Of a DNA stretch of 42,025 nucleotides, positions 2,501 through 31,981 are shown piece after piece. Below the pieces are notes generated by a model, which was not told the DNA's origin, searched no databases, and saw only the letters and a program-made list of their open reading frames with translations. Origin of the DNA: an uncultured Lachnospiraceae bacterium (GTDB lineage: Bacteria > Bacillota > Clostridia > Lachnospirales > Lachnospiraceae); the NCBI GenBank assembly GCA_944381405.1, contig CALWLA010000020.1:1-42025 (forward strand), read 5' to 3'. The position numbers and the translations under genes are program-made. Every line of letters begins with the position of its first letter. Positions within the stretch are counted from its first letter, which is position 1.

Positions 2501-2695
2501 CATGCCCTGACCTTCCCGTTGGGAGAGCTGTCCAACTGGTCCGGCAGCTGCTGAAATACCATGAATTTCTTCTGCAGTTCTGCAGAATTCGATCAGTACG
2601 TTGCGGACAACGAGCTGGATCCCGATCTGGTGATCAAATGCGACGCAGAGGGCGCCCTCAAGGCGGCCTATGATATTTTCTCCGTGGAGGATTAA
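2501..2695 (+). pseudogene. saoL: C-terminal remnant of MerB-like organometal lyase with in-frame UGA (SaoL-like)
   Basis: Downstream of saoA one frame stays open to TAA 2693-2695 if the TGA at 2552-2554 is read as Sec. It gives LGELSNWSGSCU, then NTMNFFCSSAEF and 38 further residues. This matches the pattern at the C-terminus of organomercurial lyase MerB, where a Cys-Cys pair containing the second catalytic Cys (C159 in E. coli) precedes an HFFAS-type segment and a helix. Here the pair is Cys-Sec. No N-terminal domain with the first catalytic Cys/Asp is present: saoA ends only 21 bases upstream of this interval. The copy therefore looks 5'-deleted. No convincing start codon was seen; TTG at 2519 is the only in-frame near-candidate. 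The true left boundary is uncertain. Confidence 0.6.
2570..2587 (+). promoter_or_regulatory. SECIS-like hairpin downstream of the UGA at 2552
   Basis: A 7-bp perfect stem (2570-2576 with 2581-2587, TTCTGCA/TGCAGAA) closes a GTTC loop. It lies 22 bases from the end of the UGA to the loop. Bacterial SECIS elements need a short stem, a G near the start of the apical loop and roughly 16-37 nt spacing, and this hairpin meets all three. It supports reading the TGA at 2552 as selenocysteine in the ancestral gene. Confidence 0.55.
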
Positions 2696-2753
2696 ACCTA
2701 AACCTCAACTGGAGAAATCAAATAAGGATATACAGAAAGCGGCGGGAGACTCC

Positions 2754-3812: not shown

Positions 3813-3855
3813 GGCCTGGAAAGGGAGCGTAAGGCTCTGGAAAGGGAGGGCATAA
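3792..3855 (+). repeat. Three imperfect tandem copies of a ~20-bp unit spanning a stop codon
   Basis: Units at 3792-3812, 3813-3832 and 3833-3855 share the core GGAAAGGG followed by GC/GG and TAA. The first unit contains the last codons and the stop of the molybdopterin-binding gene. The third provides the GGGAGGG ribosome site for moaC at 3862. This looks like a local duplication that created the intergenic spacer. Confidence 0.8.
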
Positions 3856-3861
3856 ACCAGG

Positions 3862-4362
3862 ATGGAAACATTTACGCATATCGACGAATACGGAAATGCC
3901 AGAATGGTGGACGTATCGGAAAAGGACGTTACAAGCCGCCGCGCTGAGGCGGAGGGCTATATCGGCATGTCCGGGGAATGCTTTTCTCTTTTGCAGGCGG
4001 GAAAGCACAAAAAAGGAGATGTGCTGACGGTGGCCCAGGTGGCGGGCATCATGGGGACCAAGCAGACGGCAGGACTCATTCCCCTCTGCCACAGCCTGGC
4101 GCTCACAGGCTGCAAACTGCTGTTTTATCCCGGAGAGAGGCCCGGGGAGGGAAAAAAAGACTGCTATGTGCGGGCGGTCTGTCAGGTGGAATGCACCGGC
4201 AAAACGGGAGCGGAGATGGAGGCCCTGACAGGGGTCACCACGGCGCTCCTTACCGTTTACGATATGTGCAAGGCTGTGGACCGGAGCATGGAGATCACCG
4301 GCATAAGCCTGTTGAGAAAAAGCGGCGGAAAGTCAGGCGACTATGTGCGGAAGGAAGGCTGA
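3862..4362 (+). CDS. moaC: Cyclic pyranopterin monophosphate synthase MoaC
   Basis: The 166-residue protein is full length for MoaC. It converts 3',8-cyclo-7,8-dihydro-GTP into cyclic pyranopterin monophosphate, the first stable intermediate of molybdenum cofactor, together with MoaA. Recognisable family segments are THIDEYGNARMVDVS at 5-19, IPLCHSLALTGC at 73-84, and AEMEALTGVTTALLTVYDMCKAVD cut here to its core, GVTTALLTVYDMCKAVD, at 124-140, which carries active-site Lys and Asp. The start has GGGAGGG upstream, supplied by the tandem repeat. The 3' end overlaps moaA by 20 bases, so the two are co-translated. Confidence 0.95.
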   Translation: METFTHIDEYGNARMVDVSEKDVTSRRAEAEGYIGMSGECFSLLQAGKHKKGDVLTVAQVAGIMGTKQTAGLIPLCHSLALTGCKLLFYPGERPGEGKKDCYVRAVCQVECTGKTGAEMEALTGVTTALLTVYDMCKAVDRSMEITGISLLRKSGGKSGDYVRKEG

Positions 4363-5407
4363 AAAGCTTAAAGGAAAAGAGAAAAGCCAGAGCCAAGGTC
4401 AAGTCCCGGACCGTCAGGACCGGTTCGCCAAAGCAGGACAGAATCTGGATCCCTTGGGCAGGACCATCGACTATCTGCGGATCTCCGTAACAGACCGCTG
4501 CAACCTCCGCTGCATCTACTGTATGCCGAAGGGCAGTTGCCGTTGTGAGCAGGAGCCGCCTCTGTCCCTGGAAGAGCTTCTGGAAATCGCAGGCACTGCA
4601 GCGGACTTCGGCATCTCCCATATCAAGGTGACCGGCGGGGAGCCCCTTCTGCGGGAGGATACGCCGGAGCTTTGCCGAAGGCTGAAAGCCATTCCGGGGA
4701 TTCAGACCGTGACCCTCACCACAAACGGCCTGCTGCTGCAGAAATATCTTCCGGCCCTGAAGGAGGCCGGAATCGATGGCATCAACGTCAGTTTGGATAC
4801 CCTGGATCCGGAACGATACCGGCAGATCACCGGCGGCGGCAGCCTTTCCCAGGTGCTGGCTTCCATAGAGGCCGCTCTGGCAGAAGAGATCCCCACAAAG
4901 ATCAATGCGGCGCTTCTGGACCCGGAGGCGGCGGAGGACAGTCTGGCACTGGCAGCCCTGGCGGAAAAACGGCCCATTGCGGTCAGGTTTATCGAAATGA
5001 TGCCCATTGGCTGCGGAAGCCGTTTTCCAGGCTGCGATAACCGCCTTATTCTGAAAAAGCTTTTGGAACGCTGGCCGGACCTGAAAAAAGAAAAGGCCGC
5101 CCTGGGATACGGCCCGGCGGTTTACTATACCTCTGACCGGCTGACCGGATGGATCGGATTTATCTCGGCCATCCATGGAACATTCTGCCAAAGCTGCAGG
5201 CGGCTTCGGCTCAGCTGTCACGGCAGGCTGACCCCCTGTCTCTGCTATGGAGAGGGAATCGAGCTGCGGCCCCTGCTCCGGCAGGAGGGAAAAGAGGCGC
5301 TTTATCAGGCCTTTTGTGAAGCGGTCAAAAGAAAGCCGGAGGGCCATTGCTTTTCTCAACAGGAGAAGATCAGTGAAAAGCGCATGATGAGCCAGATCGG
5401 CGGATAA
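4343..5407 (+). CDS. moaA: GTP 3',8-cyclase MoaA (radical SAM)
   Basis: This 354-residue radical SAM enzyme makes 3',8-cyclo-dihydro-GTP from GTP. The N-terminal cluster motif is Cys53, Cys57, Cys60 (CNLRCIYC). The second 4Fe-4S site, CxxC then 13 residues then Cys, is Cys282, Cys285 and Cys299. The extreme C-terminus is Gly-Gly, the conserved tail that enters the MoaA active site. An unusual hydrophilic extension of about 35 residues stands before the usual start (DPLGRTIDYLRISVTDRC), so initiation may be later than 4343. The ATG at 4343 overlaps moaC and has GGAAAG upstream. It works with MoaC in the same operon. Confidence 0.95.
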   Translation: MCGRKAEKLKGKEKSQSQGQVPDRQDRFAKAGQNLDPLGRTIDYLRISVTDRCNLRCIYCMPKGSCRCEQEPPLSLEELLEIAGTAADFGISHIKVTGGEPLLREDTPELCRRLKAIPGIQTVTLTTNGLLLQKYLPALKEAGIDGINVSLDTLDPERYRQITGGGSLSQVLASIEAALAEEIPTKINAALLDPEAAEDSLALAALAEKRPIAVRFIEMMPIGCGSRFPGCDNRLILKKLLERWPDLKKEKAALGYGPAVYYTSDRLTGWIGFISAIHGTFCQSCRRLRLSCHGRLTPCLCYGEGIELRPLLRQEGKEALYQAFCEAVKRKPEGHCFSQQEKISEKRMMSQIGG

Positions 5408-5438
5408 GGATGAGCCGGACCGGCGGATAAAAAGGATG
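5398..5438 (+). repeat. Two-copy direct repeat spanning the moaA stop codon
   Basis: CGGCGGATAAGGATG (5398-5412) and CGGCGGATAAAAAGGATG (5421-5438) are near-identical. The first contains the moaA stop and the second supplies the purine-rich ribosome site of the following gene. It resembles the stop-codon repeat at 3792-3855. Confidence 0.75.
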
Positions 5439-5446
5439 GAAATACA

Positions 5447-6403
5447 ATGGAGAACCAGCTTAAGGGAATCATCAGAGCAATCTGCATCAGTCCGGAACGG
5501 GGCACGGAGAAACGGCCTGTTCCAGAGGCAAGGCTGCGGCCAGGCTACGGCATCGAGGGAGACGCCCATGCGGGTTACTGGCACCGGCAGGTAAGCCTTT
5601 TGAGCTATGAAAAGGTAGAGGCCTTCAACGCTCTGGGGGCGCAGGTTGCTGACGGCGATTTCGGAGAAAACCTGCTGGTATCCGGCATCGATTTCCGGAC
5701 GCTTCCCCTTGGTACCCTGCTCCTTTGCGGAGAGGTCAGGCTGCGGATCACTCAGATCGGAAAGGAATGCCACAGCCACTGCAGCATCCATCAGCGGGTG
5801 GGGACCTGCATCATGCCTGTGGAGGGCGTCTTTGCGGAGGTGCTGGAGGGAGGCAGCTTACGTCCCGGCGACCGGATGGAGGCAGTTCTCCCCAAGGAGG
5901 ATGCCCTCAGAGCGGCAGTCATCGTCCTGAGCGACAAGGGGGCTTTGGGACAGCGGCAGGATGAAAGCGGTCCGGAGGCGGAGCGCTGCCTTTCGGAGGC
6001 AGGCTATCAGGTGATGGAACGCCGGCTCCTTCCGGATGAGCCGGAGCTTTTGAAACAGGAGCTTATGCGGCTCTGCGATCAGAAACAGGTGAACCTGATC
6101 GTCACCAGCGGCGGCACCGGTTTTTCTCTGCGGGATCAGACGCCGGAGGCCACCCTGGCGGTGGCGGACCGGAATGCGCCGGGAATCGCTGAGGCCATCC
6201 GGGCCGAATCCATGAAATATACGAAGCATGCCATGCTCTCAAGAGGCGTTTCCGTGCTGAGAAAGCAGACCCTCATCGTGAATCTTCCCGGCAGTCCCAG
6301 GGCAGTGCGGGAGAGTATGGAGGTGTTCCTCCCTGGGGTGGAGCACGGCCTCCGGCTGCTGCAGGGCACAGACGGGGAGTGCGGACGCTCCTTGGGGAAA
6401 TGA
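5447..6403 (+). CDS. MOSC domain - MoaB/Mog molybdopterin adenylyltransferase fusion
   Basis: The 318-residue protein joins two cofactor domains. Residues 1-145 are a MOSC domain (GIEGDAHAGYWHRQVSLLS near 33-51, DFGENLLVSGI near 70, and IGKECHSHC near 106), a sulfur- or molybdenum-carrier fold. Residues 152-312 are a MoaB/MogA-type MoCF domain with VTSGGTGFSLRDQTPEAT near residue 222 and VNLPGSPRAVRE near the end; it adenylylates molybdopterin with MgATP before molybdate insertion. The fusion is a known arrangement in Clostridia and suggests a coupled step of adenylylation and sulfur or cofactor transfer. RBS AAGGATGG precedes the ATG. It lies directly downstream of moaA. Confidence 0.9.
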   Translation: MENQLKGIIRAICISPERGTEKRPVPEARLRPGYGIEGDAHAGYWHRQVSLLSYEKVEAFNALGAQVADGDFGENLLVSGIDFRTLPLGTLLLCGEVRLRITQIGKECHSHCSIHQRVGTCIMPVEGVFAEVLEGGSLRPGDRMEAVLPKEDALRAAVIVLSDKGALGQRQDESGPEAERCLSEAGYQVMERRLLPDEPELLKQELMRLCDQKQVNLIVTSGGTGFSLRDQTPEATLAVADRNAPGIAEAIRAESMKYTKHAMLSRGVSVLRKQTLIVNLPGSPRAVRESMEVFLPGVEHGLRLLQGTDGECGRSLGK

Positions 6404-6460
6404 TGCAGGACATCTATCGTAAAGACTGAACGATCGAGGATATCGATGAGGAGGGTAGCG

Positions 6461-7306
6461 ATGAGCTTATACAGAAATATTGCAGCGGCAGCTGCTGCAG
6501 TGCTCCTGCTTTCCGCCTGCGGAGGGACGGATGCGGCCGAAACCCTGAAGGGGGAGGAAGCCCTTCAGGAACCGACCCGAAAGGAAGCAGAGACCCAGGA
6601 GGATACCACCGTGACGCTGGCGGCTGCGGCCTCTCTGGAATACGCCTTTACGGAGCGGCTGATCCCTGCCTTTGAGGCTGCCAACCCCGGAATACGCATC
6701 GAAGGGATCTACGATTCCTCCGGAAAGCTCCAGACCCAGATCGAAGCAGGGCTTCCAGCGGATATCTTTTTCTCCGCAGCGGAAAAACAGATGGATGCCC
6801 TGGATGCGGAGGGGTATGTGCAAAGCGGCACCATTACGGATTATCTGGAAAACAGGATCGTTCTCATCGTGCCGAAGGAAGCCGGAAGCGACATCGCATC
6901 CTTTCAGGATCTGTCCAAGGCGGAGATGATCGCTCTGGGAGATCCGGAAAGCGTTCCTGCAGGGCAGTATGCCCGGGAAGTCCTTACCAATCTGGGTATC
7001 TGGGAGGAACTTCAGGGAAAGATCAGCTTCGGCACCAATGTGACGGAGGTGCTGAACTGGGTGGCGGAGGGCTCTGCTGACTGCGGCATCGTCTATGCCA
7101 CGGACGCCGCCACGGGCCGGGTAACTGTGGTTTCCGAAGCGCCGGAGGGCTCCCTGGATACGCCGGTGGTTTATCCGGCAGCTCTTTTGAAACAGACGGA
7201 GGAGAAAAATACGGATGCGGCAGAATTGTTTTTTGAATATATCCTGTCCGACGAAGCATATTCTGTTTTTGCGGAATACGGCTTTGCGGATCACAGATCA
7301 GAATAA
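6461..7306 (+). CDS. modA: Molybdate ABC transporter substrate-binding lipoprotein ModA
   Basis: The 281-residue protein binds molybdate or tungstate outside the cell and delivers it to ModB. ATG 6461 is preferred to the in-frame ATG 6446 because GAGGAGG (6448-6454) lies just upstream of it. The signal peptide ends in LLLSACGG, with Cys20 as the lipid-modified residue. The mature domain has ModA features: LAAAASLEYAFTERLIPAFE, GIYDSSGKLQTQIEAGLPADIFFSA (shown here only in part: YDSSGKLQTQIE), the GDPESVPAGQYAREVL segment, and the VLNWVAEGSADCGIVYATDA oxyanion-side motif, truncated here to GSADCGIVYATDA. modB follows after 14 bases. Confidence 0.93.
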   Translation: MSLYRNIAAAAAAVLLLSACGGTDAAETLKGEEALQEPTRKEAETQEDTTVTLAAAASLEYAFTERLIPAFEAANPGIRIEGIYDSSGKLQTQIEAGLPADIFFSAAEKQMDALDAEGYVQSGTITDYLENRIVLIVPKEAGSDIASFQDLSKAEMIALGDPESVPAGQYAREVLTNLGIWEELQGKISFGTNVTEVLNWVAEGSADCGIVYATDAATGRVTVVSEAPEGSLDTPVVYPAALLKQTEEKNTDAAELFFEYILSDEAYSVFAEYGFADHRSE

Positions 7307-7320
7307 GGCGGTACTCCGGT

Positions 7321-7995
7321 ATGACTGATCTGTCTCCGGTCTGGATCTCCCTGAGGACCACGGCGGCGGCTTCCCTGATCACTTTTTTCCTGGGGATCCT
7401 GGCCGCCTGGTGGGTGCTGAGAATGAAAAACCGCTGGCTCAAAGTGATTCTGGACGGTATCCTGACGGTCCCTCTGGTGCTGCCGCCTACGGTAGCGGGC
7501 TTTTTCCTTCTATATCTTTTTGGAGCCAACCGGCCTGCGGGAAGATTCTTCATAGAAGTGTTGGGGTACCAGATCCCGTTTTCCTGGTGGGCCACGGTGA
7601 TCGCCGCAGCAGCAGTGTCCTTCCCCCTGATGTACCGGTCCGCCAAGGCAGGCTTCCAGCAGCTGGAGCAGGGCCTGGTGGACGAAGCAAAGCTTATGGG
7701 ACTTGGAGATTTCCGGATCCTGTGGCAGATATTGGTGCCCTGCTCCCTGCCCTCTGTGGTATCCGGCTTTATCCTGGCCCTTACCAGGGGATTGGGAGAG
7801 TACGGTGCGACGGCGATGCTGGCAGGCAACATCCCCGGAAAAACCAGGACCATGCCCCTGGCGGTTTATTCCCAGGTGGCGGCAGGACATATGAAGGAGG
7901 CATGGATCTATGTGGCTGTGATCCTTGCCATCGCCCTGTGGGCGGTATGCCTGCTGGGGCTGTTTGCAGAAAAAGAAGAGGGAATCCGGCTCTGA
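7321..7995 (+). CDS. modB: Molybdate ABC transporter permease ModB
   Basis: The 224-residue integral membrane protein has about five helices and the EAA coupling motif (DEAKLMGLGDFRILWQILVP), which contacts the ATPase. TLPLVLPPTVAGF-like sequence (VPLVLPPTVAGF near residue 47) and LGEYGATAMLAGNIPG near 160 are typical of ModB. It pairs with ModA just upstream. No modC ATPase gene follows: the next gene is saoD, so the ATPase is encoded elsewhere or borrowed. AAGGCGG precedes the ATG. The TGA stop at 7993-7995 was considered as Sec and rejected, since no plausible extension follows. Confidence 0.93.
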   Translation: MTDLSPVWISLRTTAAASLITFFLGILAAWWVLRMKNRWLKVILDGILTVPLVLPPTVAGFFLLYLFGANRPAGRFFIEVLGYQIPFSWWATVIAAAAVSFPLMYRSAKAGFQQLEQGLVDEAKLMGLGDFRILWQILVPCSLPSVVSGFILALTRGLGEYGATAMLAGNIPGKTRTMPLAVYSQVAAGHMKEAWIYVAVILAIALWAVCLLGLFAEKEEGIRL

Positions 7996-8103: not shown

Positions 8104-8436
8104 ATGAGAGTCGCTTATTTACTGGAATCCCACAATGTAAGGGACATCCTGGAGAACATGATCGTTCCCCAGCTGGAGGAGGAGCGCCATGTGGCAGAGG
8201 TCGCAGGCATGATGTTCTTCTACGACAACACCTTCATCATGCAGGAGGGCTCTGATCTGGGAGAGCGCATCGCTGCTCTGGCTGAAAAATACGGCATCCT
8301 GCTGATGTGCTGCGACAGATGCTGCTATCAGAGAGATATCGCTGACAAGCTCATCGCTCCCTGCGGCATCGGCTGCTTCCCCAACGTATATACGGCTCTG
8401 GCAGGGGCAGGCGTAGACCAGGTGATCACCTTATAA
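8104..8436 (+). CDS. saoD: DsrE-related Cys-rich small protein (SaoD-like)
   Basis: The 110-residue protein has a DsrE/TusD-like Rossmann fold pattern: strand MRVAYLLES, helix, strand AGMMFFYDNTF, helix, strand GILLMCC. It carries Cys69-Cys70 and Cys73-Cys74 (CCDRCC) plus Cys87 and Cys91 near a glycine-rich turn. DsrE-family proteins carry sulfur (persulfide) or related groups on Cys residues. I recall the family name DsrE-related protein SaoD for the selenocysteine-assisted organometal gene set, which fits the locus. Two adjacent Cys-Cys pairs would suit binding a soft metal or transferring selenium or sulfur. A GGAGG site precedes the ATG, and a strong terminator follows. It appears to be monocistronic. 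Confidence 0.7.
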   Translation: MRVAYLLESHNVRDILENMIVPQLEEERHVAEVAGMMFFYDNTFIMQEGSDLGERIAALAEKYGILLMCCDRCCYQRDIADKLIAPCGIGCFPNVYTALAGAGVDQVITL

Positions 8437-8499: not shown

Positions 8500-9192
8500 T
8501 TAGGGAACGAAGAGATAACCCCTGCCCCATTCCGTCAGGAGATGCTTCGGCTCGGAGGAATCCTCCTCGATCTTGTCCCGGATGCGCTTGATGTAGACCA
8601 GCAGCTTTGTCTGGTCGAAGGTATCCGTATTCCAGACTTCCCGATAGAGCTGTTCCTTCGGCACCGTTTCCCCGGGACGCTCCATGAGCTTGCAGAGAAT
8701 GGAAAATTCCTTGCTGCTGAGGGCAAGCTCCCGGTCCTGATAAAAGGCCTTCTGGATGTCAAGCTTCAGAAGAAAATTGCCGCAGGTAAGCTCCGAGCGC
8801 ACCTCCGGCTCCTGGGTATAGACCCGGCTGCGGCGCAAAAGCGCCTGAATCTTGGAGGCCAGCACGGCGGAGCTGAAGGGCTTTGTGATATAGTCGTCGG
8901 CTCCGAGGCCGTAGCCCCGGATCATGCTGCCGTCCTCGTTGAGGCCGCTCAACACGATGACAGGGGTGTAGATGCCCCGCTCCCGGATGGTGTGCAGCAG
9001 GGAAAAACCGTCTGTCTCCGGCATCATGAGATCCAGAAGGATCACGTCAAAGTTTTTTTCGCCAAGGAGGGAAAGGGCCTCCTCAGCATTTTCCGCAAGG
9101 GAAACCTCCATGCCCTCCGCGGAAAGGGCGGAGCGGATGGCAAGCCTTACGGAGCGTTCGTCGTCGATGACCAGAACGGAAATACAGTCCAT
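8500..9192 (-). CDS. OmpR/KdpE-family response regulator
   Basis: The 230-residue regulator has a receiver domain (1-120) with acidic residues Asp10-Asp11, phospho-acceptor Asp54, Ser82 and Lys104, and a winged-helix DNA-binding domain (about 130-230). It is divergently transcribed from a histidine kinase, sharing a 92-base region that holds a perfect palindrome (9240-9267). It is likely to control that pair and the adjacent selenoprotein binding-protein gene; the target is inferred from position only. The closest functional names by sequence pattern are KdpE/OmpR-like, but the locus contains no K+ transport genes. Confidence 0.9.
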   Translation of the reverse strand: MDCISVLVIDDERSVRLAIRSALSAEGMEVSLAENAEEALSLLGEKNFDVILLDLMMPETDGFSLLHTIRERGIYTPVIVLSGLNEDGSMIRGYGLGADDYITKPFSSAVLASKIQALLRRSRVYTQEPEVRSELTCGNFLLKLDIQKAFYQDRELALSSKEFSILCKLMERPGETVPKEQLYREVWNTDTFDQTKLLVYIKRIRDKIEEDSSEPKHLLTEWGRGYLFVP

Positions 9193-9239
9193 AAAAATCC
9201 TTTCCTCCGGCAGGGTATGCCCTTCCGGAGAATATGTGT

Positions 9240-9267
9240 TATAATAAACAAACTATTGTTTATTATA
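9240..9267. promoter_or_regulatory. Perfect 12-bp palindrome in divergent two-component promoter region
   Basis: Arms TATAATAAACAA (9240-9251) and TTGTTTATTATA (9256-9267) are separated by ACTA. Each outer end reads TATAAT on its own outgoing strand, so the dyad may contain the -10 boxes of both divergent genes and a regulator operator at once. No good -35 is visible on either side. The kinase start is 17 bases away. Confidence 0.65.
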
Positions 9268-9284
9268 GATGGAAAAAGCAGGAA

Positions 9285-10994
9285 ATGAAAGAGAAAATCA
9301 GAAAAATTTCAGCGCAGAAAAGCAAGCTTGGCCCCTCGGGCTATCTCATGATCGCCGCCCTGGGCATCCTGTTCATCGTCCTCATCGGCTATTTCAGCTA
9401 CAGCACGGTGCTCAGGGCCCTGGTGCAGAGCGAAGCGGACAGCATCAAGAGCATCGCCTCCGCCAACGCCCTGAGCCTGAAGGCAGGCTTTGAGGATAAG
9501 GAGACCCTGATCGAAAGCCTGTACGGAGATGATTTTCCGGATATGGCCGCTTTGGAGCAGGCCATGGACAAGGTCTTCTGCGACAAGGATTTTTACAGGG
9601 AGCATGACTACAGGTACTTGCCGGAGGAAAAACGGGAGGTCTGCCAGCGGGCCGCGGAAAATCCGGGAGAGGTCATCAGCGGCCCCACTTATTACCAGAA
9701 CGGGGGCTACTATGTGTTCTATATGACCAAGGCCATTTCCATCGATGGCCGTATAGCCGGGGTCCTGCAGTTTGAATGGAATCTGGACCGGATCTTCCGG
9801 GAAAGCGGCATGCTTTCCAATCTGGAGATCAACAACAACGGCTACTGCATCGTCCGGAACAAGGAAGGAAAGATCATCATGTCCCGGGAGGGGGGAAAGG
9901 AGGATATCCGGCCGGAAACGGATACGGACTTCGCCTATCTGACAAAGGATCTGCCCAGGGCAGAGCGGACCTGGTCCTATACGGTGGAAAAGGGCGTGCC
10001 CATGCGCCGGGAGGAGCTGGTGGCCTACGCCTCCGCCGCCTTTGAGGACGAGGTGTTCACCGTGTGCGTGGGAGAGGACTACGCCATGCTGGTAAAGCCC
10101 CTGGAACGGCTTTTGCTGTATCTGACCCTTCTCGGGGGAGCCCTGCTGGTGTGGCTTTTGGGAGCCCTGTGGTTTTACATGCAGGGAAAAAAGCAGGAGG
10201 AGGCCCTGAAGCTGGAGCTGCTCCACGAAAAGGAAATGAACGAGGTGGGGAAGACCCTGGAAAAACAGGAGGCCCTGATGCAGATCTACAACCGGGACAA
10301 GGAGCTGACCTCCCTGTGGGGAGCCCTGGCCCATGAGTTCAACAACCAGATGACCCCCATCCTGCTGTATGCGGAGCTTTTCAAAAACAACAAGTCCGTG
10401 GCGGCCCTGCTGCCGGAGGAAACGGAGGAGCTGTACCAGTCCGCCGCTCAGTGCAGCCAGCTGTCCCGGCAGATGCTGGAGTTTTCCAGGGCAGGCCGGG
10501 CGGAGCGGAAAAAGACCCGGTTCAACGCTTCTGCAGAGGTGCGGCTGAGCCTGCGGATGATCCAACGGATCCTGCCCCAGAATATCCGGCTGGAAGCCTC
10601 CGTCAGCAAAAAAGACTACTATATGCTGGGACAGACCGGCATGCTTGGGCAGATCCTGCTGAATCTCTCCAACAACGCCATCCATGCCATGAAGGATCAG
10701 GAGCAGGGCATCCTTCAGATCGCCTTTGGAGAAAAGCGGGAGGAGCCGGGGGTTTTATGTCTTGTGGTGGCGGATAACGGAAAAGGCATCCCGAAGGAGC
10801 TCAGGCGGCACATCTTTGAACCCTTTTTCACCACAAAGCCGGAGACCGAGGGCACCGGCATCGGCCTTACGGTGGTTGCCCGGCTGCTGCAGGAAAACGG
10901 CGGCTCCATCAGCGCCTCCTCGGAGGAGGGAAAGGGCAGCCGTTTTGTGGCGGAGCTTCCTGCCGCCCAGGGCCCTGAGAAGGAAACAGAATGA
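9285..10994 (+). CDS. Membrane sensor histidine kinase with extracytoplasmic Cache-like domain
   Basis: The 569-residue kinase starts at ATG 9285; the earlier ATG 9234 would put the palindrome inside the gene. Helix 1 is at about 19-37, a roughly 230-residue extracytoplasmic region resembles dCache sensors, and helix 2 is at about 275-302. The phospho-acceptor is His350 (ALAHEFNNQMTPIL), in an NtrB-like H-box with a following Asn. The catalytic domain shows the N-box (NLSNNAIHAM), G1 (VVADNGKGIP) and G2 (GTGIGLTVVARLL). It is divergent from the response regulator and 142 bases upstream of the selenoprotein gene. The signal may be the transporter's substrate, but this is inference. Confidence 0.9.
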   Translation: MKEKIRKISAQKSKLGPSGYLMIAALGILFIVLIGYFSYSTVLRALVQSEADSIKSIASANALSLKAGFEDKETLIESLYGDDFPDMAALEQAMDKVFCDKDFYREHDYRYLPEEKREVCQRAAENPGEVISGPTYYQNGGYYVFYMTKAISIDGRIAGVLQFEWNLDRIFRESGMLSNLEINNNGYCIVRNKEGKIIMSREGGKEDIRPETDTDFAYLTKDLPRAERTWSYTVEKGVPMRREELVAYASAAFEDEVFTVCVGEDYAMLVKPLERLLLYLTLLGGALLVWLLGALWFYMQGKKQEEALKLELLHEKEMNEVGKTLEKQEALMQIYNRDKELTSLWGALAHEFNNQMTPILLYAELFKNNKSVAALLPEETEELYQSAAQCSQLSRQMLEFSRAGRAERKKTRFNASAEVRLSLRMIQRILPQNIRLEASVSKKDYYMLGQTGMLGQILLNLSNNAIHAMKDQEQGILQIAFGEKREEPGVLCLVVADNGKGIPKELRRHIFEPFFTTKPETEGTGIGLTVVARLLQENGGSISASSEEGKGSRFVAELPAAQGPEKETE

Positions 10995-11136: not shown

Positions 11137-12426
11137 ATGAAAAGACAGACAAAGAAACAGGTTCTTTCCTGTCTGCTGGCCGTATCCTTGGCTGTGCCGG
11201 TGATCTCCGCCTGCCACAACAGTGCGGAAAACACGGCTGCCGTATCGAACGAGGCCATCGGTTATGACCCGGAAGAGGCCGTCAAGGATTTTGAATTAGG
11301 CGAGCTCAATGACCTGGAAAAGGACTATACCATTGAAGTAGGCTACAACAACTGCGACCACATGGTTGCATGTATCATCGCTCAGGAAGCGGGCATTTAT
11401 GATGCCCTGGGACTCGATGTGAACCTGACCAAGACCGCAGAGATCATCAACGGACTTTCCTCCGGACAGATGGACGCAGGCTACCAGGGCATCGAGGGTT
11501 CCATCCTGGCGGCGAACCAGGGCGCTCCCATCTTCATGGCGGCGGCAAACCATCTGGGCGGTTCCCGTTACTTTGTAGCTTCCAACGACATCCAGGATCC
11601 TCAGGACCTTCTGGGCAAGACCCTTGCCATCACCGCACAGGGTGAGATCGATCCCGAGTGGATCACCTGGTCCAACAAGCTGGGCATCCCCAATGAGTCC
11701 TCTGCTTACAACGTTGTAAGCATGGGACAGCAGGACGCCATGTTCGCGCTGAAAGCCGGTCAGATCGACGGCTTCACCTGCTGAGACCCCTACGCATCTA
11801 TATGCGAGTTCGAAGGTTTCGGACATATTATGGCGATCGGCTGGGGCGCCGCTAACGTTGACAGCGAATCTACAGCAGAAGAATGGGGCATGTGCTGTAT
11901 CGTAGCCATGGCACAGGAGTTCTATGAGAATTGTCCTGAGCTGGCAAGACGGCTTGTATATGCTCACACCAAGGCGATTGAGTACATGTACTCACATCCT
12001 TACAACGCAGCAATGATGTTTGCAGACGGTTTTGATACCGACCCCTATGTTGGACTTCGTACCATCTACATGAAGACCGTGGCAGAGGGACGTACCATCA
12101 CCTGGCAGTTCTCCGAGCAGAACATCGACAACTACATTCACTATTTCACCCAGTATCCGCAGATTCCCGAGGAGGAGATCCCGAGACTGGAAAACGTTCA
12201 GGAGTTCCTGGGTACAGACCTGATCCAGAGTACGGGCGCAAATGATTTCGAGGAATTCATCGCCAACGAGATCGACCCGGTATTCCCCATCGGAATGACC
12301 TTTGAGGACTGGTACAACAAGGCGGTGGAAGTGGACGGCATTCCGGATGACGAGAAGATCGACATCTCCGATACCGCAACCTCCTACCTGAACAAGGACC
12401 TGGCAGACAGGCCGGTGCTGAACTAA
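11137..12426 (+). CDS. ABC transporter substrate-binding selenoprotein (UGA = Sec216)
   Basis: The gene encodes 429 residues if the in-frame TGA at 11782-11784 is read as selenocysteine; otherwise it would break into 215 and 198+ residue pieces in the same frame. The N-terminus is a lipoprotein signal ending VISAC, with Cys26. The fold is NitT/TauT-like: YNNCDHMVACIIAQEAGIYDALGLDV matches the binding-protein lobe 1 start (abridged core MVACIIAQEAGIYDALGL), and IDGFTC-U-DPYASICEFEG spans the Sec in lobe 2, forming a Cys-Sec pair. A further Cys-Cys (EEWGMCCIVAM) follows. A SECIS-like hairpin lies 30 bases after the UGA to the loop. The neighbours are a sensor kinase upstream and molybdoenzymes downstream. 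The substrate is unknown, and the Cys-Sec pair suggests a soft metal or metalloid ligand. Confidence 0.9.
11808..11824 (+). promoter_or_regulatory. SECIS-like hairpin for Sec216
   Basis: A 7-bp stem (11808-11814 with 11818-11824, one U-G pair) closes a GGU apical loop. Thirty bases separate the UGA from the loop, within the 16-37 nt expected of bacterial SECIS, and the loop starts with G. A smaller hairpin (CGCAT 11793-11797 / ATGCG 11802-11806) lies between and may extend the structure or compete. Confidence 0.7.
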
Positions 12427-12585: not shown

Positions 12586-12643
12586 CATTATAGATATACT
12601 CATAGGTGTGCCCGTATGCGGCAAAGGAAGAAAGGAGGCTGCA

Positions 12644-14758
12644 ATGGCAGTAAAGAAGGTAAAGGGAATCTGCGGCATCTGTCCGGACAAGTGCGATATC
12701 CTGGCGACTGTGGAGGACGGCAGGCTTATCAAGATCGAACCGGACCGGGAGGCGCCCAGAGGGAGGCTCTGTCCAAGAGGCGCCCTGGCGCCTGAGATCA
12801 TCTACCATGAAAAGCGCATCCTGCATCCTCTGATCCGCACCGGAGAGCGGGGCAGCGGCCAGTTTCGGGAAGCAAGCTTTGAGGAGGCCCTGGATTACGC
12901 TGCGGAAAAGATCAAAGAGGTGGTAAAAAACTACGGACCTGACGCATTGGTGTCCTATGTGGGGACCGCCGGAAGAGAGCCCTCCAGCATGCGCTGCTTC
13001 GGCGGAAAGGACGCTTTTTTCGGACATCTGGGCGGCATCAACGATACCACCTGCGGGTCTACCTGCAACTTCGCCTCCTATGTCATGGCGCCGGTGACGG
13101 TCTTTGGCATCAACCAGACCAATATCGTCCAGGATTTTGCCCATACGGAGCTGATCTTCATCTGGGGCAAGAACCCGGCTACGGATTCCGGCTATCAGAC
13201 GCTTTATAACAATATCAGGGCCGCCAGGAAGCGGGGCGCAAGGGTGGTTGTCATCGATCCGAGGGGAGACTGCAACAACGGGGAATACGACGAGTGGATC
13301 CCGGTGATTCCCGGCACCGACGGGGCCATGATCCTGGCCATGACAAAGCTGGCCCTGGAAAGCGGCCGCTACGACAAGGCTTTTGCAGAGGAATACATGG
13401 AGGGCCTTCCGGAATATCAGGCGTATCTGGACAGCCTCTCCCTTGCGGAGCTGTCTGAAACCTGCGGCGTGCCCCTTTCCGATATCAGGCGGCTTACTGA
13501 AGAGCTTCTGGAAAAGCCTGCAGCCCTCATCGCCTATACGGGCCTGGAGTATCAGCTTTCCGCCATCCAGAACAACCGGGCCGCCTGGATCCTCTGGGCC
13601 CTCTGCGGAAAGATGGACACCCCCGGCGGCATGCTCTTTACCGGTACAGGCTACGAAACGTTTCCGCTCCATCCCCTTCCGGAGGGGAAAAAGCCCATCG
13701 GCTGCCGCAGTTACCCCCTTTACTACATGATGTCCGGCTCTGCCCAGCTGGGGGAGGATTTCCTGACGGGCGTCCTGGAGGATGATCCCTATCCCATCCG
13801 CGGGTATCTCCTTTGCGCGGGAGCCACCTCCCTCACCTTCCCGGAGCAGAAGCGCTGGGAGGAGGCCTACCGGAAGCTGGATATCTTCATCGTGCTGGAG
13901 CGTTTTATGAGCAATGACGCCCGCTTTGCGGACGTGATCTTCCCCTCCACCACCTATTTTGAGGACGAGAGCATCGTGGACGTCCCCGGCGGGAAGCAGC
14001 TCCGGCGGCGCATCATCGACCCGGTGGGGGAGGCCAGGACCGATACCTTCATCCTCCAGGCCCTGGCGGAACGGTTGGGCTTTGGTGATGCTTATCCGAA
14101 AAACGACGAAGAGATGCTTTTGTGGCTGGCAAAGGGCGATGAGACCCTTGTGGAAAAGCTCCGGAATACCCAGTACGGCCTCCTGCGGGAGCCGAACCAT
14201 GACTTGCGGAAATATGAGACAGGGCAGCTTCGGAAGGACGGAAAAAAGGGATTTCCCACACCCTCTGGAAAGATCGAGATCCGTTCCAGCCTCATCGAGG
14301 CGGCAGGGCTTTGCGGCATGCCGGTCTATCATGATATCCGGGAGATTCCGGCCTTTGGCACAAAGGAGGAATTCCCCATGATGCTGACCACCGGCGCAAG
14401 AAGCCTGATCCGTTTTTCCGCCTTCGGGCCTAATCTTCCGGAGATCGCAAAGGTGGAGCCGGATCCCCTTCTGAGCATCAGCCGGGAGGACGCGGAGGCC
14501 CAGGGTATCCGGGAGGGGGACCAGGTGCTGGTGGAAACCGCCTTTGGAAAGGAGACCTTCCCCGCCCATATCTGCAAAATGGCAAAGGGCTGCATCCACA
14601 TCCCCTTTGGCGGCGGCAGTCCCTATATGCTGGGCGGCTGGAAGGAGGGCAATGTGAACCGCCTGGCCTCCATGCGCTACAGCGATCCGGTTTCCGGCTT
14701 TATCAGTTACAAATCCATTCCCTGCCGCATCAGAAAGGCAGAGGAAGCACAGCGGTAA
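12644..14758 (+). CDS. Bis-MGD molybdopterin oxidoreductase catalytic subunit A (DMSO reductase family)
   Basis: The 704-residue protein starts at ATG 12644, which has AGGAGG in front; the GTG at 12608 is rejected. An N-terminal 4Fe-4S site uses Cys10, Cys13, Cys17 and Cys43. The probable molybdenum ligand is Cys141 in CGSTCNFASY (Cys137 nearby), a pattern closer to PhsA/PsrA/arsenate-type Cys enzymes than to Sec formate dehydrogenases. The C-terminal molybdopterin dinucleotide-binding domain starts near residue 580 (MLTTGARSLIRFSAFGPN). No Tat signal is present, so it should act in the cytoplasm. It is the first gene of an operon with a second catalytic subunit, an Fe-S subunit and a cofactor-synthesis fusion. 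The substrate cannot be told from sequence. Confidence 0.88.
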   Translation: MAVKKVKGICGICPDKCDILATVEDGRLIKIEPDREAPRGRLCPRGALAPEIIYHEKRILHPLIRTGERGSGQFREASFEEALDYAAEKIKEVVKNYGPDALVSYVGTAGREPSSMRCFGGKDAFFGHLGGINDTTCGSTCNFASYVMAPVTVFGINQTNIVQDFAHTELIFIWGKNPATDSGYQTLYNNIRAARKRGARVVVIDPRGDCNNGEYDEWIPVIPGTDGAMILAMTKLALESGRYDKAFAEEYMEGLPEYQAYLDSLSLAELSETCGVPLSDIRRLTEELLEKPAALIAYTGLEYQLSAIQNNRAAWILWALCGKMDTPGGMLFTGTGYETFPLHPLPEGKKPIGCRSYPLYYMMSGSAQLGEDFLTGVLEDDPYPIRGYLLCAGATSLTFPEQKRWEEAYRKLDIFIVLERFMSNDARFADVIFPSTTYFEDESIVDVPGGKQLRRRIIDPVGEARTDTFILQALAERLGFGDAYPKNDEEMLLWLAKGDETLVEKLRNTQYGLLREPNHDLRKYETGQLRKDGKKGFPTPSGKIEIRSSLIEAAGLCGMPVYHDIREIPAFGTKEEFPMMLTTGARSLIRFSAFGPNLPEIAKVEPDPLLSISREDAEAQGIREGDQVLVETAFGKETFPAHICKMAKGCIHIPFGGGSPYMLGGWKEGNVNRLASMRYSDPVSGFISYKSIPCRIRKAEEAQR

Positions 14759-14795
14759 CGCTGCAAGAGCGAAACAAAAGAGGTGAGGAACTCAC

Positions 14796-16880
14796 ATGCA
14801 GGAGATCAAAAGGACCATATGCGACATCTGCGCTTCCAGATGCCCCATGGACTGTTATATTGAAGATGGAAGGATCGTATCCGTAGAGCCTGGACAGAAG
14901 GGCAGCGGCGCAAGCGGCCTCTGCTCCAAGGGGGCAGCTGCCCTGCAGTACGTTTACAACAAGGAACGGCTCCGCTATCCCATGGTGCGGACAGGCGAAA
15001 AGGGAAGCGGTCGTTTTGAACGGATCACCTGGGACGAAGCTTATGATCTCATGGCAGAAAAGCTGCTTCGGATCAGGGAAAACCATGGGCCGGAATCCGT
15101 TGTCTTTTATGCCGGCTATCCCAAGTGGTACCGGCCTGCCCTGCTGCGGTTTGCAAACGCCTTCGGCTCTCCCAATTTCTGCACGGAATCCAGCACCTGC
15201 TTTCAGGCCTTTGCCCTGTCCTGGGCTCTGACCTTTGGAGGAAGGCCCGCCATGCCGGACCTGAAAAACTGCCGCACCCTGATGCTCTGGAGCAGGAACC
15301 TGTTTCACTCCGATGTAGGCGCGGGGGTCATGCTGCGGAAGCTGCGGGAGAGGGGCGGAAAGGTCATCGATGTGGATCCGGCCAATACGGTGACGGCCTA
15401 CGAATCCGATATCCATCTGGACCCCCTGCCGGGTACCGACGGAGCCCTTGCCCTAGGCATGGCCAACGTGATCCTTTCCGAAGGGCTCTGGGACCGGGAA
15501 TTTGTGGAAAAGTATGTTTCCGGTTTCGGTGAATTCCGGGCCTATGCGGCCTCCTTTACGCCGGAACGGGTGGAACAGATCACAGGCGTGAAAAAAGAGC
15601 TTGTGGTGGAGGCAGCCAGGATCTATGCCCTGAACAAGCCCTCCGCCATCATGTTTTCCGCCTCACCGGTGGTGCATAACATCAACGGCCTGCAGAATTA
15701 CCGGGCGGTGGAAGCCCTCATCGCCATTACGGGAAACTATGACGTACCGGGAGGCAACTGCCTTCGGGCCAGGGCCTCGGCGCCCCTCAACGAATTCGGC
15801 AGGGTGCTGCGGCTTACGGAGCCGGAGGCCATCGGCCAGCGGGAGTTCCCCGCCTGGTTCGACTGTCCCTGCCAGGAGGCCCAGTGTACCCGTCTCGCCC
15901 AGTATATCCAGTCGGAAGAGCCTTACCCCATCAAGGGGCTTTTCGCCATGGGCATGAATCACAGGATGTGGCCGAAGCCCTCCCATCTGGAAAGAGCCCT
16001 TGGAAAGCTGGATTTCTATGTGGATTCCGATCTCTTCATTACGGATTCCATGAAGACGGCGGACCTGATCCTGCCGGCTCAGAGCTTTTTCGAGCACGAT
16101 GAGATCATAGACCCCATGGATGGACGGGTGATTCTGCGGGAGGCCGTGATTCCGCCTGAGGGGGAAGCGGAAAACGATATCGTGATGATCCAGCGGCTGA
16201 TGCAGCGCATGGGACTTTCGGATCCGGTGCTGTCCGGCAGCTATGAGGACTATATGAATCAGATCCTCCTGCCTTCCGGGCTGCAGGTCTCCGATCTGCG
16301 GGGACACCCGGAGGGGCTTTATTCCGAGGAGACGGGCAGTCCGGAATACAGAAGCTTTGAAAAAACGCCCTTCAATACCCCTTCCGGCAAGATCGAACTC
16401 GCCTCGGAGGTGCTGAAGCGGTACGAAAAGAGCCATGGCTATCACGCCCTTCCGGTCTATCAGGATTTCCGGGAGCATATTCCGGAGGCATGTCTTCTGG
16501 GAAAGGAGCGGGAGGCGTTTCTTGCAGAGTATCCTTTGATCCTGAACGCGGGCTCCAGACGGCCCCAGTTTTTCCACAGCCGCACCTACCGCATGGCCTG
16601 GCTCCGGAATCTGGAGGAGGCGGCCCTTTTGGAGATGCACCCCTCTGACGCTGAGGCAAGGGAGATCCACGATGGGGATCCGGTACAGGTGGTTTCCAGC
16701 TGCGGCAGCATTTCCGCCGTGGCGGAGCTCAATCCCTCCTGCCATCCCGGCGTGGTGCGGTTCTATCACGGAAATCCCCAGGCGGATGTCAACGAGCTGA
16801 TTCCGGAGGAATATCTGGATCCGGTTTCCGGCTTCCCGGGGTTCAAATCCTGGTTTTGTGAGGTGAAACGATACGCATGA
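14796..16880 (+). CDS. Bis-MGD molybdopterin oxidoreductase catalytic subunit B (DMSO reductase family)
   Basis: The 694-residue protein is a distant paralogue of the preceding one. Its 4Fe-4S site uses Cys9, Cys12, Cys16 and Cys43, with an extra Cys20. The likely metal ligand is Cys135 in TESSTCFQAF. NAGSRRPQFFHSRTYR near residue 585 opens the C-terminal dinucleotide-binding domain, and HPGVVRFYHGNPQADVNEL lies near the end. No Tat signal is seen. GAGGTGAGGA precedes the ATG. Two catalytic subunits in tandem with one Fe-S partner is uncommon: either they form a heteromer, or they act on successive substrates and share electron transfer. STC motifs recall polysulfide/thiosulfate- or arsenate-type enzymes. 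Confidence 0.88.
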   Translation: MQEIKRTICDICASRCPMDCYIEDGRIVSVEPGQKGSGASGLCSKGAAALQYVYNKERLRYPMVRTGEKGSGRFERITWDEAYDLMAEKLLRIRENHGPESVVFYAGYPKWYRPALLRFANAFGSPNFCTESSTCFQAFALSWALTFGGRPAMPDLKNCRTLMLWSRNLFHSDVGAGVMLRKLRERGGKVIDVDPANTVTAYESDIHLDPLPGTDGALALGMANVILSEGLWDREFVEKYVSGFGEFRAYAASFTPERVEQITGVKKELVVEAARIYALNKPSAIMFSASPVVHNINGLQNYRAVEALIAITGNYDVPGGNCLRARASAPLNEFGRVLRLTEPEAIGQREFPAWFDCPCQEAQCTRLAQYIQSEEPYPIKGLFAMGMNHRMWPKPSHLERALGKLDFYVDSDLFITDSMKTADLILPAQSFFEHDEIIDPMDGRVILREAVIPPEGEAENDIVMIQRLMQRMGLSDPVLSGSYEDYMNQILLPSGLQVSDLRGHPEGLYSEETGSPEYRSFEKTPFNTPSGKIELASEVLKRYEKSHGYHALPVYQDFREHIPEACLLGKEREAFLAEYPLILNAGSRRPQFFHSRTYRMAWLRNLEEAALLEMHPSDAEAREIHDGDPVQVVSSCGSISAVAELNPSCHPGVVRFYHGNPQADVNELIPEEYLDPVSGFPGFKSWFCEVKRYA

Positions 16881-17314
16881 AACGCAGAATTAACACGGAT
16901 ACGGAAAAATGCGTGGGCTGCCTGGCCTGTATGACGGCCTGCATCGCAGCCCATCATGACTGCAGCGAGGAAGGGGCCAGAAGCTTCCGCATCATCAAAA
17001 AGACAAAGGATCAGACGGGGACCTTTCAGAAAAACGTCTGCCTTTCCTGCACCCACTGCGGCGCCTGTATTTCCGCCTGCACCACCGGGGCATTGTACCG
17101 GGACCGGGAAACCGGGCTGGTGCTGTCTGACAAAAGGCTCTGCGTAGGCTGTCAGCGCTGTTCCCTGGTTTGTCCCCAGGCTGTGATCTTCTATGATGAA
17201 AACGGCAAGATCGAAAAATGCGACGGATGCGTAAACCGGATCCGGGAAGGGAGAACCCCGGCATGTATACAGACCTGTTATCTGAAGGCCATCACCATGA
17301 CTACGGATATCTGA
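16877..17314 (+). CDS. Ferredoxin-type 4Fe-4S electron-transfer subunit
   Basis: The 145-residue protein has four Cys-rich motifs of the DmsB/HycB type: CVGCLACMTAC at 12-22, CLSCTHCGACISAC in the middle, CVGCQRCSLVC next, and CDGCVNRI...CIQTC at the end. This pattern ligates four 4Fe-4S clusters and passes electrons to or from a molybdoenzyme. The start overlaps the upstream stop by 4 bases (ATGA), so it is coupled to catalytic subunit B. No membrane anchor gene follows, so electrons probably come from a soluble carrier or another membrane complex. Confidence 0.92.
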   Translation: MKRRINTDTEKCVGCLACMTACIAAHHDCSEEGARSFRIIKKTKDQTGTFQKNVCLSCTHCGACISACTTGALYRDRETGLVLSDKRLCVGCQRCSLVCPQAVIFYDENGKIEKCDGCVNRIREGRTPACIQTCYLKAITMTTDI

Positions 17315-19644
17315 TCTTAAGCGGTGGAAAAAACCGCCGGATGGAGGGACAGGTCAAGCTGTTCATGAAGGTCCTGGGCAAGACCCAGCTTCAGCGGCTC
17401 CAGGAGCTGATCCAGCATACGGAGTCCCTGCTTAAAGAAGCGGTACTTTTGGAAAAAGCTTCCGAAAACACTGTTTCTGAAAGCGCTGTTCATGAAAATA
17501 CTGTGCATGAGAAAAAAGGCGCGCCACTGTGGATCTCTATCGGCGCAGATCCCCTGCCAAAAGAGGATCGGGAACGCTATCTTTCCACAGGATTGCCCCT
17601 GGTTCCGGATCTGTGCAGGGACTGCGGCCCCATGGGCGGGATCCTGTCAGGTCTTACGGCCTGCGGCAGGGAGGCCCTGCTGGTGCTTCCATCAGATATG
17701 TATGCGGCAGAGGAGGACATCCTGCTGCCGCTGTTGTCTGTTTATGAAAAAACAGGAAAGCCGGTCTTCTATGAGCAGGAAGGGCGGCCGGAGCCCTTTC
17801 CCGGCATTTATACCAAGGTTTTGCTTTCCGGCCTCAAAAAATCCCTGGAGGCAGGAAGGCTGGGGCTTGTGCCCTGGATCAGGGCCCTGGCAGCAAAAGG
17901 CCAAGCGCAGCTTCTGCCTCTTGCAGAAACCCGCTGGCACAATCTGAATACCCCAAAGGAGGTTCTGGAAATGGAAGAGCCCAGGCTTGAACTGGAAGAG
18001 GCATTTTACGGCATGGAGGCGCTGCTTAGGCCCATGGAAGAGACAGAAGAAGTCCCCCTGTCCGAGGCCCTGGGCCGTTTTCTGGCCAAGGATTACCTTG
18101 CCAGCCGTCCCCAGCCTCCCTTTGACCGGTCCCCCCTGGACGGCTATGCGGTGAGGACAGCTGACATCAAAGGGGCTTCAAAGGAACAGCCTGCGGTCCT
18201 CAGGGTAAAGGACAGATCCTATGCGGGAGAGGGCAGGCGGCTTTCCATCGGCCCGGGAGAGGCTCTGCGGATCATGACCGGCGCTCCTGTTCCAGAAGGA
18301 GCTGACGGGGTGGTGATGCAGGAGGACACGGATCAGGGGGAGCAGGAGGTACGAATCTACAAATCCTTAAAGCCTGGCCAGAATGTCGTTTTTGCAGGGG
18401 AGGACTATTCCGCGGGAGAAAGGCTCCTGCAGGCGGGAGAGCGTCTGTCTCCTTCCCGCATCGCCCTGCTGGCTTCCATGGGGGAAGACCGGATCGCCGT
18501 GACCAAAAGGATTCGCATCTCTCTTTTTTCCACCGGGGATGAGCTGGCGCTTCCGGGAGACCCCCTCAGCTATGGAAAGATCTACGATTCAAACCTTTAC
18601 GGCGCAAGGGCCCTGCTGCAGGCGGCGGGAGAGGAGGTGGTGAGGGCGGAACGGCTTCCGGATACCCAGGAAGAGATCCTCTCCATGATCCGCAGGGCCC
18701 TTTCCGATTCCGACATGGTGATCACCACGGGAGGCGTTTCCGTGGGAGAAAAGGACCTGATGCCCCATGTGCTCAGGGCCCTTGGGACAGAGCTGGTGTT
18801 TTTCGGCCTCCGGATGAAGCCGGGGATGCCGTCAAAGGGCGGCCTGTTGCAGGAAAAGCCCATTTTCTGCCTGTCAGGAAATCCCGCAGCGGCCTATACC
18901 CAGCTGGAGCTCCTGATAAAGCCTCTGCTGCGGTACCTTCACGGAGCCAGGGAGCAGGATCCCTGGAACAGGACCCTGGCGGTGCTGCAGACCGACGTGG
19001 AAAAGAAAAGCCCGGGCCGCAGACTGCTGCGGGGGACGCTCCAGGGTGGCCGGGTATGGTTCCCGGAGGGGCGTTTTTCCTCCGGAAGTCTCTCGGGCCT
19101 TTCGGAAAGCAACTGCTTTATAGACATTCCGGCAGGCAGCGGCGCTTTAAAAAAGGGCGCGGTGGTTTCCGTGCTGCCTTTTTCCGAGGGAAACGAGAGC
19201 CTTCGGCCCTGTGGAAAAAGAAAGCCCTTTGTCTATGCCGTAAGCGGCTACAAAAACACAGGGAAGACGACCCTTATGGAAAAGCTGATACCGCTGCTTG
19301 AGGCGGAGGGGCTCAGGACAGCCTGCATCAAGCACGACGGACACGACTTCCTGCCGGACGTGCCCGGCACCGACAGCTTTCGTTTCCGGGAAGCCGGAGC
19401 CTTAGGCTGCGCCGTTTTCTCCGGGAGCCGCTTTATGCTGACAAAGGAGCAGGCCCTTACGGAGGAACCGCTGCTTTCGGCCTTTCCGGAGGCGGATATC
19501 ATCCTCATAGAAGGCCTTAAGGACAGCAGCTATCCGAAGCATATCTGCCGGTATCCGGATGAAGATGACGATCCAAAAGAGGTGCTGAAGGACATCCTGG
19601 AACAGTACCGGAGGCATCTGGATAACGAAAAGAATTTCTTATAA
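17263..19644 (+). CDS. MobA-MoeA-MobB triple fusion (molybdenum cofactor maturation)
   Basis: The protein has about 793 residues from ATG 17263, which has GGGAGA upstream; the gene overlaps the Fe-S gene by 52 bases. Residues 15-230 are MobA-like guanylyltransferase (LILSGGKNRRMEGQVKLF), which makes the dinucleotide cofactor. Residues 235-640 are MoeA (DRSPLDGYAV, MTGAPVPEGADGVVM, STGDEL, TTGGVSVGEKD, CLSGNPAAA), which inserts molybdenum. Residues 655-793 are MobB with the P-loop SGYKNTGKTT near 661. The order matches MobA + MoeA + MobB in one chain, needed by the bis-MGD enzymes encoded just upstream. The MobA part has an insertion with three imperfect ENTV/ESAV-type units near residue 67-86. 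Confidence 0.93.
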   Translation: MYTDLLSEGHHHDYGYLILSGGKNRRMEGQVKLFMKVLGKTQLQRLQELIQHTESLLKEAVLLEKASENTVSESAVHENTVHEKKGAPLWISIGADPLPKEDRERYLSTGLPLVPDLCRDCGPMGGILSGLTACGREALLVLPSDMYAAEEDILLPLLSVYEKTGKPVFYEQEGRPEPFPGIYTKVLLSGLKKSLEAGRLGLVPWIRALAAKGQAQLLPLAETRWHNLNTPKEVLEMEEPRLELEEAFYGMEALLRPMEETEEVPLSEALGRFLAKDYLASRPQPPFDRSPLDGYAVRTADIKGASKEQPAVLRVKDRSYAGEGRRLSIGPGEALRIMTGAPVPEGADGVVMQEDTDQGEQEVRIYKSLKPGQNVVFAGEDYSAGERLLQAGERLSPSRIALLASMGEDRIAVTKRIRISLFSTGDELALPGDPLSYGKIYDSNLYGARALLQAAGEEVVRAERLPDTQEEILSMIRRALSDSDMVITTGGVSVGEKDLMPHVLRALGTELVFFGLRMKPGMPSKGGLLQEKPIFCLSGNPAAAYTQLELLIKPLLRYLHGAREQDPWNRTLAVLQTDVEKKSPGRRLLRGTLQGGRVWFPEGRFSSGSLSGLSESNCFIDIPAGSGALKKGAVVSVLPFSEGNESLRPCGKRKPFVYAVSGYKNTGKTTLMEKLIPLLEAEGLRTACIKHDGHDFLPDVPGTDSFRFREAGALGCAVFSGSRFMLTKEQALTEEPLLSAFPEADIILIEGLKDSSYPKHICRYPDEDDDPKEVLKDILEQYRRHLDNEKNFL

Positions 19645-31930: not shown

Positions 31931-31981
31931 AGCGAATATTTCCCTTTCTTTTTACCATCGCCGCCTGTCCAATGGCTGTAT

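Follow-up and report, generated by a model that had tools for sequence, protein, structure and literature searches.

The gene described here belongs to a known family, that of the substrate-binding protein of the SAO system (Haft and Gwadz 2023, as cited in PMC13188914). A 2026 review lists this ABC-type protein, SaoX (NCBIfam NF040735), as a selenoprotein with the motif UxP and credits the assignment to the same authors (PMC13188914). Solved structures with the same fold include the taurine-binding protein TauA (6ssy), in which Trp176 touches bound MES, Asp205 binds the taurine amine and Leu204 is among the binding-site residues compared with SsuA (PMC6906117). A further one is THI5/NMT1 (4h65), whose CCCFC motif has been called iron-binding (PMC10512395).

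We examined a saoX gene in 42,025 bp of a contig, here called C20, of an uncultured Lachnospiraceae bacterium; this whole stretch is referred to as the window. The features of the window that concern saoX and its SAO neighbours are as follows:

1–206, + strand: 3′ end of saoE, an efflux transporter gene (truncated at the contig start; translated in frame 1, it is similar to the final part of the L020 SaoE homologue)
207–800, + strand: saoC, Cys form, product ends in CC (NF040734, 175.7 bits, cut-off 80)
805–1590, + strand: saoB, Cys form with DCC (NF040727, 254.2 bits, cut-off 140)
1644–2480, + strand: saoA, ABC ATPase (NF040729, 426 bits, cut-off 360)
8104–8436, + strand: saoD, DsrE-related (NF040732, 171.4 bits, cut-off 169)
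8500–9192, − strand: response regulator, divergent from the kinase gene (PF00072 and PF00486)
9234–10994, + strand: sensor histidine kinase, adjoining saoX (PF02518 and PF00512)
11137–12426, + strand: saoX, ABC substrate-binding protein, 429 residues with predicted Sec216, stop TAA at 12424–12426
11782–11784, + strand: in-frame UGA, predicted Sec216 (TGA or a Cys codon in 29 of 29 aligned sequences)
11808–11824, + strand: SECIS-type hairpin, 7 bp with loop GGU, the loop starting at nucleotide 31 after the UGA

A sequence-only reading had proposed that a TGA at 11782 interrupts a single frame of 429 codons and that similarity to binding proteins continues across it, and both proposals held. With TGA read as selenocysteine (Sec, U), the frame at 11137–12426 is open for 215 + 1 + 213 residues and then ends in TAA. 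Exactly one TGA lies within it, at 11782–11784 (residue 216, preceded by Cys215), and a Shine-Dalgarno-like GGGAGG is visible by eye upstream of the ATG at 11137. When the read-through protein was compared with NF040735, it scored 483.9 bits (cut-off 300) in a match that crosses the TGA and joins residues 62–400 to positions 1–329 of the 330 in the profile. This is the only SaoX above the cut-off in the whole genome, and the closest relative, at locus L019 in a Lachnospiraceae assembly, is 93% identical to it. Like SaoX of the SAO system, the protein thus combines a full-length match above the cut-off with Sec in UxP (PMC13188914), here U216-D217-P218, and Asp217 and Pro218 are present in all 28 sequences compared. 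As PMC13188914 already includes SaoX with UxP, the protein belongs to a described selenoprotein family and is not a new kind of selenoprotein. What is added here is the pocket alignment, a synonymous-site test, the variability of Cys215, the repeated change between Cys and Sec, and a counted co-occurrence of SaoX with SaoL.

Codon 216 was compared in 29 sequences that span the site (related loci, loci from two whole-genome searches and the window, some identical sequences being present twice). It is TGA in eight and a Cys codon (TGC or TGT) in 21, with no other codon found. Among the 20 related loci, 19 span residue 216, with TGA in five (assemblies L019, L021, L022, L030 and L033) and TGC or TGT in 14; L037 was left out, as it does not span the residue. 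Extibacter muris (L023) has a natural Cys form. The SaoX relative in L037 (L037:10001-10753) has approximately residues 104–240, including the Sec/Cys position, unaligned, the result of either a deletion or an assembly fault. Alignment A1 covers 17 of the 20 loci (L032, L036 and L037 omitted), and neither the tree nor the 28-sequence conservation counts include L036. The tree, built from 28 sequences of which 24 are different, calls for at least three changes of state between Cys and Sec, two of them forced by starred branches, and the family represents a natural experiment on the interconversion of these residues. Since 21 of the 29 sequences carry Cys, selenium is not essential to the SaoX family.

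The comparison with L019 (Nei–Gojobori) gave dN/dS values of approximately 0.011 before the TGA (0.0204/1.862) and 0.021 after it (0.0234/1.109), and saoX is under purifying selection on both sides. The host genome contains selA, selB, selD and a tRNA-Sec gene, all above their cut-offs. The first two are side by side on contig C1, which also carries selD. The tRNA-Sec search returned ten hits, one of them above the cut-off, and ARAGORN called a tRNA-Sec with anticodon TCA. The match to selD (L012, contig C1:53320-54243) contains one TGA in frame, and SelD is probably a selenoprotein too.

Downstream of the UGA, the predicted hairpin GUUCGAA-GGU-UUCGGAC has seven pairs. For bacterial SECIS elements the published constraints are a loop of 3–9 nt, a stem of 4–16 bp, a G in the first two loop positions and 16–37 nt from the UGA (PMC13188914). 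With 7 bp, loop GGU and 30 nt between UGA and loop, the saoX hairpin, which the sequence-only reading had placed at the correct distance, falls within all of them, and it is a weak signal when taken by itself. Most of the stem is dictated by the protein sequence FEGFG, and so the hairpin alone is weak evidence. When the 18 downstream codons were recoded synonymously 20,000 times, 61% of the recodings yielded a qualifying stem of ≥7 bp, and we rejected the hairpin as sole proof of Sec. Of the 719 TGA trinucleotides on the + strand, 49 have a qualifying stem. Searches against Rfam returned no match over the window at the gathering score, nor around the site at E values up to 5.

Comparison among relatives was more informative. 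All seven pairs are kept in each of the eight TGA sequences versus one of the 21 Cys sequences (L020). In L021 and L022 an A-U pair has become U-A by change on both sides of the stem, and in L033 a U.G pair has become C-G. Over the hairpin codons, four Sec–Sec pairs of sequences show 0/10, 0/10, 1/8 and 1/8 synonymous changes, compared with 95/214, 79/205, 77/155 and 20/44, in the same order, over the rest of the gene; of the stretches elsewhere, 0/154, 3/96, 1/88 and 1/11 were equally conserved. Six Cys–Cys pairs show 3/10, 3/10, 5/8, 5/9, 5/10 and 4/9 over the hairpin codons, and the Sec–Cys pair of L020 and the window shows 4/9. These counts are from ungapped frames anchored at codon 216, so that outside the hairpin few codons can be compared in the pairs with indels (L030–L033 and L028–L029); the pair of the window and L021 does not count as an independent comparison. 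Selection seems to act on the RNA where codon 216 is UGA. As a near-complete hairpin is already present in many Cys forms, a switch from Cys to Sec would be easy.

The evidence beyond chance is therefore the strict alternation of TGA and Cys codons, the low dN/dS on both sides of the TGA and the scarcity of synonymous changes over the hairpin in Sec–Sec pairs. The support that the sequence-only reading had looked for is also present, as the sel genes and tRNA-Sec are in the genome and the homologues run unbroken through residue 216 with Cys or TGA, none stopping there. If the TGA were instead a real stop, saoX would be a pseudogene, the product of a sequencing error or two genes for separate proteins (11137–11784 and 11830–12426). 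Two open reading frames do flank the TGA, and several other genes in the window end in TGA. However, codon 216 is TGA in further assemblies as well (those five listed above), which makes a sequencing error very unlikely, the two sides have dN/dS of only ~0.01 and ~0.02, and the Cys homologues are unbroken. In addition, the stretch just upstream of the in-frame ATG at 11830 lacks a motif resembling a Shine-Dalgarno sequence, as judged by eye. We consider a real stop extremely improbable, and predict from the sequences compared that Sec is almost certainly inserted at residue 216 of SaoX.

The AlphaFold model of SaoX has a binding-protein fold (mean pLDDT 85.4), and its best PDB match in Foldseek was TauA (6ssy, E = 1.8e-14). 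In the HMMER alignment to 6ssy, residue 216 falls on TauA Trp176 with the top posterior mark (‘*’), while residues 253–254 align less firmly with TauA Leu204-Asp205 (posterior marks of 4 and 5 out of 10). The alignment and the TauA paper (PMC6906117) differ in numbering by an offset of 21, which fits six of the eight named residues in range, with Asp84 and Ser109 as misfits. TauA and SaoX thus have a common fold, but TauA has Trp, Leu and Asp where SaoX has Sec or Cys, Cys and Cys. THI5 is an enzyme of the thiamine pathway, not a transport protein. It also shares the fold, and the CC at 253–254 of SaoX aligns with its Cys-rich stretch, though THI5 has CCCFC and SaoX only CC at that place.

Conservation in the 28 sequences is complete for Cys73, Asp74 and Met76, and nearly so for Cys253 (26) and Cys254 (27); the exceptions are the distant homologue L076, with KT at 253–254, and L075, with His at 253. 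Residue 216 is always Cys or Sec. A Cys-Sec pair had been proposed earlier, and Cys215 does precede Sec216 here, but the pair is not a family feature, as the 28 sequences have Cys at 215 in 23 cases, Thr in three, Val in one and Ser in one. With 215 variable and 216 invariably Cys or Sec, we conclude that the key residue is 216 and not the 215–216 pair. It very probably lies in the ligand pocket, the geometry of which, like the placing of the other cysteines, is predicted from the alignments. Because the TauA counterpart of residue 216 is in the pocket, it is reasonable to infer that the selenium of SaoX would be used in ligand capture. A Sec in the ligand site of a transport protein would, if real, mean selenium used for binding, and the alignment to the TauA pocket makes the question of the SAO transport substrate directly testable.

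Two related binding proteins differ at this site. A SaoX paralogue in L021 and L022 (L021:10001-11266 and L022:3684-4961) has Thr-Sec instead of Cys-Sec, and among the SAO genes queried only a distant ATPase similarity was found near it in the stretches examined. Within the window, a further ABC transporter at 19907–23042 includes a binding protein resembling SaoX (68.8 bits, under the cut-off); it has kept a CC pair but, by eye, seems to lack both Cys and Sec where SaoX has residue 216.

MerB cleaves carbon–mercury bonds, and SaoL is a MerB-like protein. SaoL was matched in five of 397 genomes of the host family, all five among the six that have SaoX; one of these, the host genome studied here, is below the cut-off, leaving 4/397 above it. 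The co-occurrence of SaoX and SaoL gives a Fisher p of 7.5e-11 with kinship ignored. A search of eight other SaoX genomes found SaoL above the cut-off in seven and no SaoL match in the remaining one (G323), and in five of the eight SaoL is within ~7 kb of SaoX by coordinates. In the host genome the only relative of SaoL is divergent (110.3 bits, cut-off 140) and on another contig, C2. As SaoL is MerB-like and MerB cuts carbon–mercury bonds, the leading idea is import of an organometal followed by its cleavage. This reading is also reflected in the name SAO (PMC13188914).

We propose that SelB and tRNA-Sec(UCA) would recode the UGA at 11782 with help from the downstream hairpin, giving a precursor of 429 residues, with a predicted lipoprotein-type signal (ISAC), for an exported binding protein. 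The product would take the NitT/TauT (NMT1) binding-protein fold and place Sec216 at a helix start in the ligand cleft, where the taurine-binding protein has Trp176. Together with Cys253-Cys254 and probably Cys73, Sec216 would line the cleft with selenium and sulfur donors, which suggests a soft ligand, and the cleft could capture a soft metal, metalloid or organometal. A SaoP/SaoA importer would then take the ligand in, and SaoT, SaoC, SaoD and SaoE, with MerB-like SaoL in relatives, would handle it. We consider this explanation as a whole, with Sec216 in a cleft that captures a soft (organo)metal for import by SaoP/SaoA, to be likely, and the pocket alignment and the SaoL co-occurrence favour such a ligand. 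That the ligand is a soft (organo)metal has, in our estimate, about an even chance, and both ligand and import route are putative. A narrower version is more speculative and, we think, somewhat doubtful: Cys73, Sec216, Cys253 and Cys254 may form a selenium–sulfur cage for scavenging an organometal, for example an organomercurial, with selenium serving capture and not catalysis, and with FEGFG encoding most of the SECIS element so that a single base would switch between Cys and Sec. It is weakened by the less firm placing of Cys253 and Cys254 in the pocket.

Two other roles for residue 216 were weighed. The ligands in the nearest solved structures are sulfonates, nitrate, bicarbonate or thiamine precursors, making an ordinary ligand possible for SaoX, and Sec or Cys at 216 with the other cysteines might bind an organic compound free of metal, such as a thiol or seleno-compound. 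That the very closest structures bind taurine and alkanesulfonates is in keeping with this, and DsrE-related SaoD may hint at sulfur handling. However, the conserved set of C73-D-H-M, residue 216 and the CC is rich in soft donors, and SaoX co-occurs closely with MerB-like SaoL, so that we regard a metal-free ligand as rather unlikely. Sec is chiefly known from redox catalysis, and Sec216 might instead act as a redox switch, forming a selenenylsulfide with Cys215 or another Cys that SaoT reduces, which would make SaoX a redox-gated carrier and not a metal trap. Cys215 and Sec216 are neighbours here, the SAO system includes a thioredoxin-like SaoT with Sec, and a partner Cys at 73 or 253/254 is possible. 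Yet 215 is Thr, Val or Ser in five of the 28 sequences, including the Sec forms in L021 and L022, and we find a redox switch quite unlikely. Capture of a soft metal or organometal is the reading we prefer.

The neighbourhood of saoX resembles that of the SAO system in the presence of saoA, saoB, saoC, saoD and saoE (PMC13188914). It differs in three respects: genes for the molybdenum cofactor and molybdate transport separate saoA from saoD, two molybdopterin oxidoreductases are encoded downstream, and SaoB and SaoC are both Cys forms. At its start, contig C17 carries saoP (with a TGA in frame), saoT (ACAUCE) and the rest of saoE, all above their cut-offs; SaoE on C17 scored 420.2 bits (cut-off 325) over positions 2–262 of a 352-position profile. 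As positions 1–206 of the window are the end of saoE, C17 very probably adjoins the start of the window. This genome thus has SaoX, SaoP and SaoT with in-frame TGA codons, and SaoB and SaoC with Cys. SaoP has a TGA at its position in all 13 loci that span it (14 have a match). When the 20 SaoX loci, which are of unequal length and in some cases too short to show neighbouring genes, were searched with tblastn (E ≤1e-15), matches were returned for saoC in 15, saoB in 13, saoA in 12, saoD in 11 and the histidine kinase in 12. The response regulator and kinase may control the SAO genes. An ORF at 8542–9288 (+) was rejected as a gene, being very probably an antisense reading of the response regulator gene at 8500–9192 (−).

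The genes between saoA and saoD (2670–7995) are moeA-like, moaC, moaA and moaB-like, with the molybdate transport genes modA and modB. Directly after saoX, at 12608–19644, come the two molybdopterin oxidoreductase genes, a gene for a ferredoxin-type subunit and what is probably a MobA-MoeA-MobB fusion. Three of the 20 related loci have a match to the second oxidoreductase close to saoX. Farther along, 30776–35406 (−) contains two genes resembling the 2-hydroxyglutaryl-CoA dehydratase D-component, a BadF-type ATPase gene and a phage-type integrase gene.

The divergent SaoL/MerB-like protein on contig C2 (L049:9155-9805, −) has a CU motif with a TGA at residue 172, and a weak match to MerB2 (5c17; E = 9e-5) pairs the Cys of this motif with a MerB2 Cys. 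ATPase and permease genes separate its gene from that of a second NMT1/SsuA-type binding protein (L049:11486-12595, −; contig C2:130485-131594), which has an in-frame TGA at residue 240 (NHPU). Reading through the TGA raised its SsuA match from 50 bits to 90.5, and the homologues in 22 other genomes of the family all have Cys at this residue (22/22, in a CC motif that is mostly CCR), with no second TGA form among them. No NCBIfam seleno model matched this protein, and a term search of the available text of PMC13188914 returned no such entry. It is a candidate for a new selenoprotein family, and the position of an HPU binding protein near a MerB-like gene hints at a second import route of the SaoX kind.
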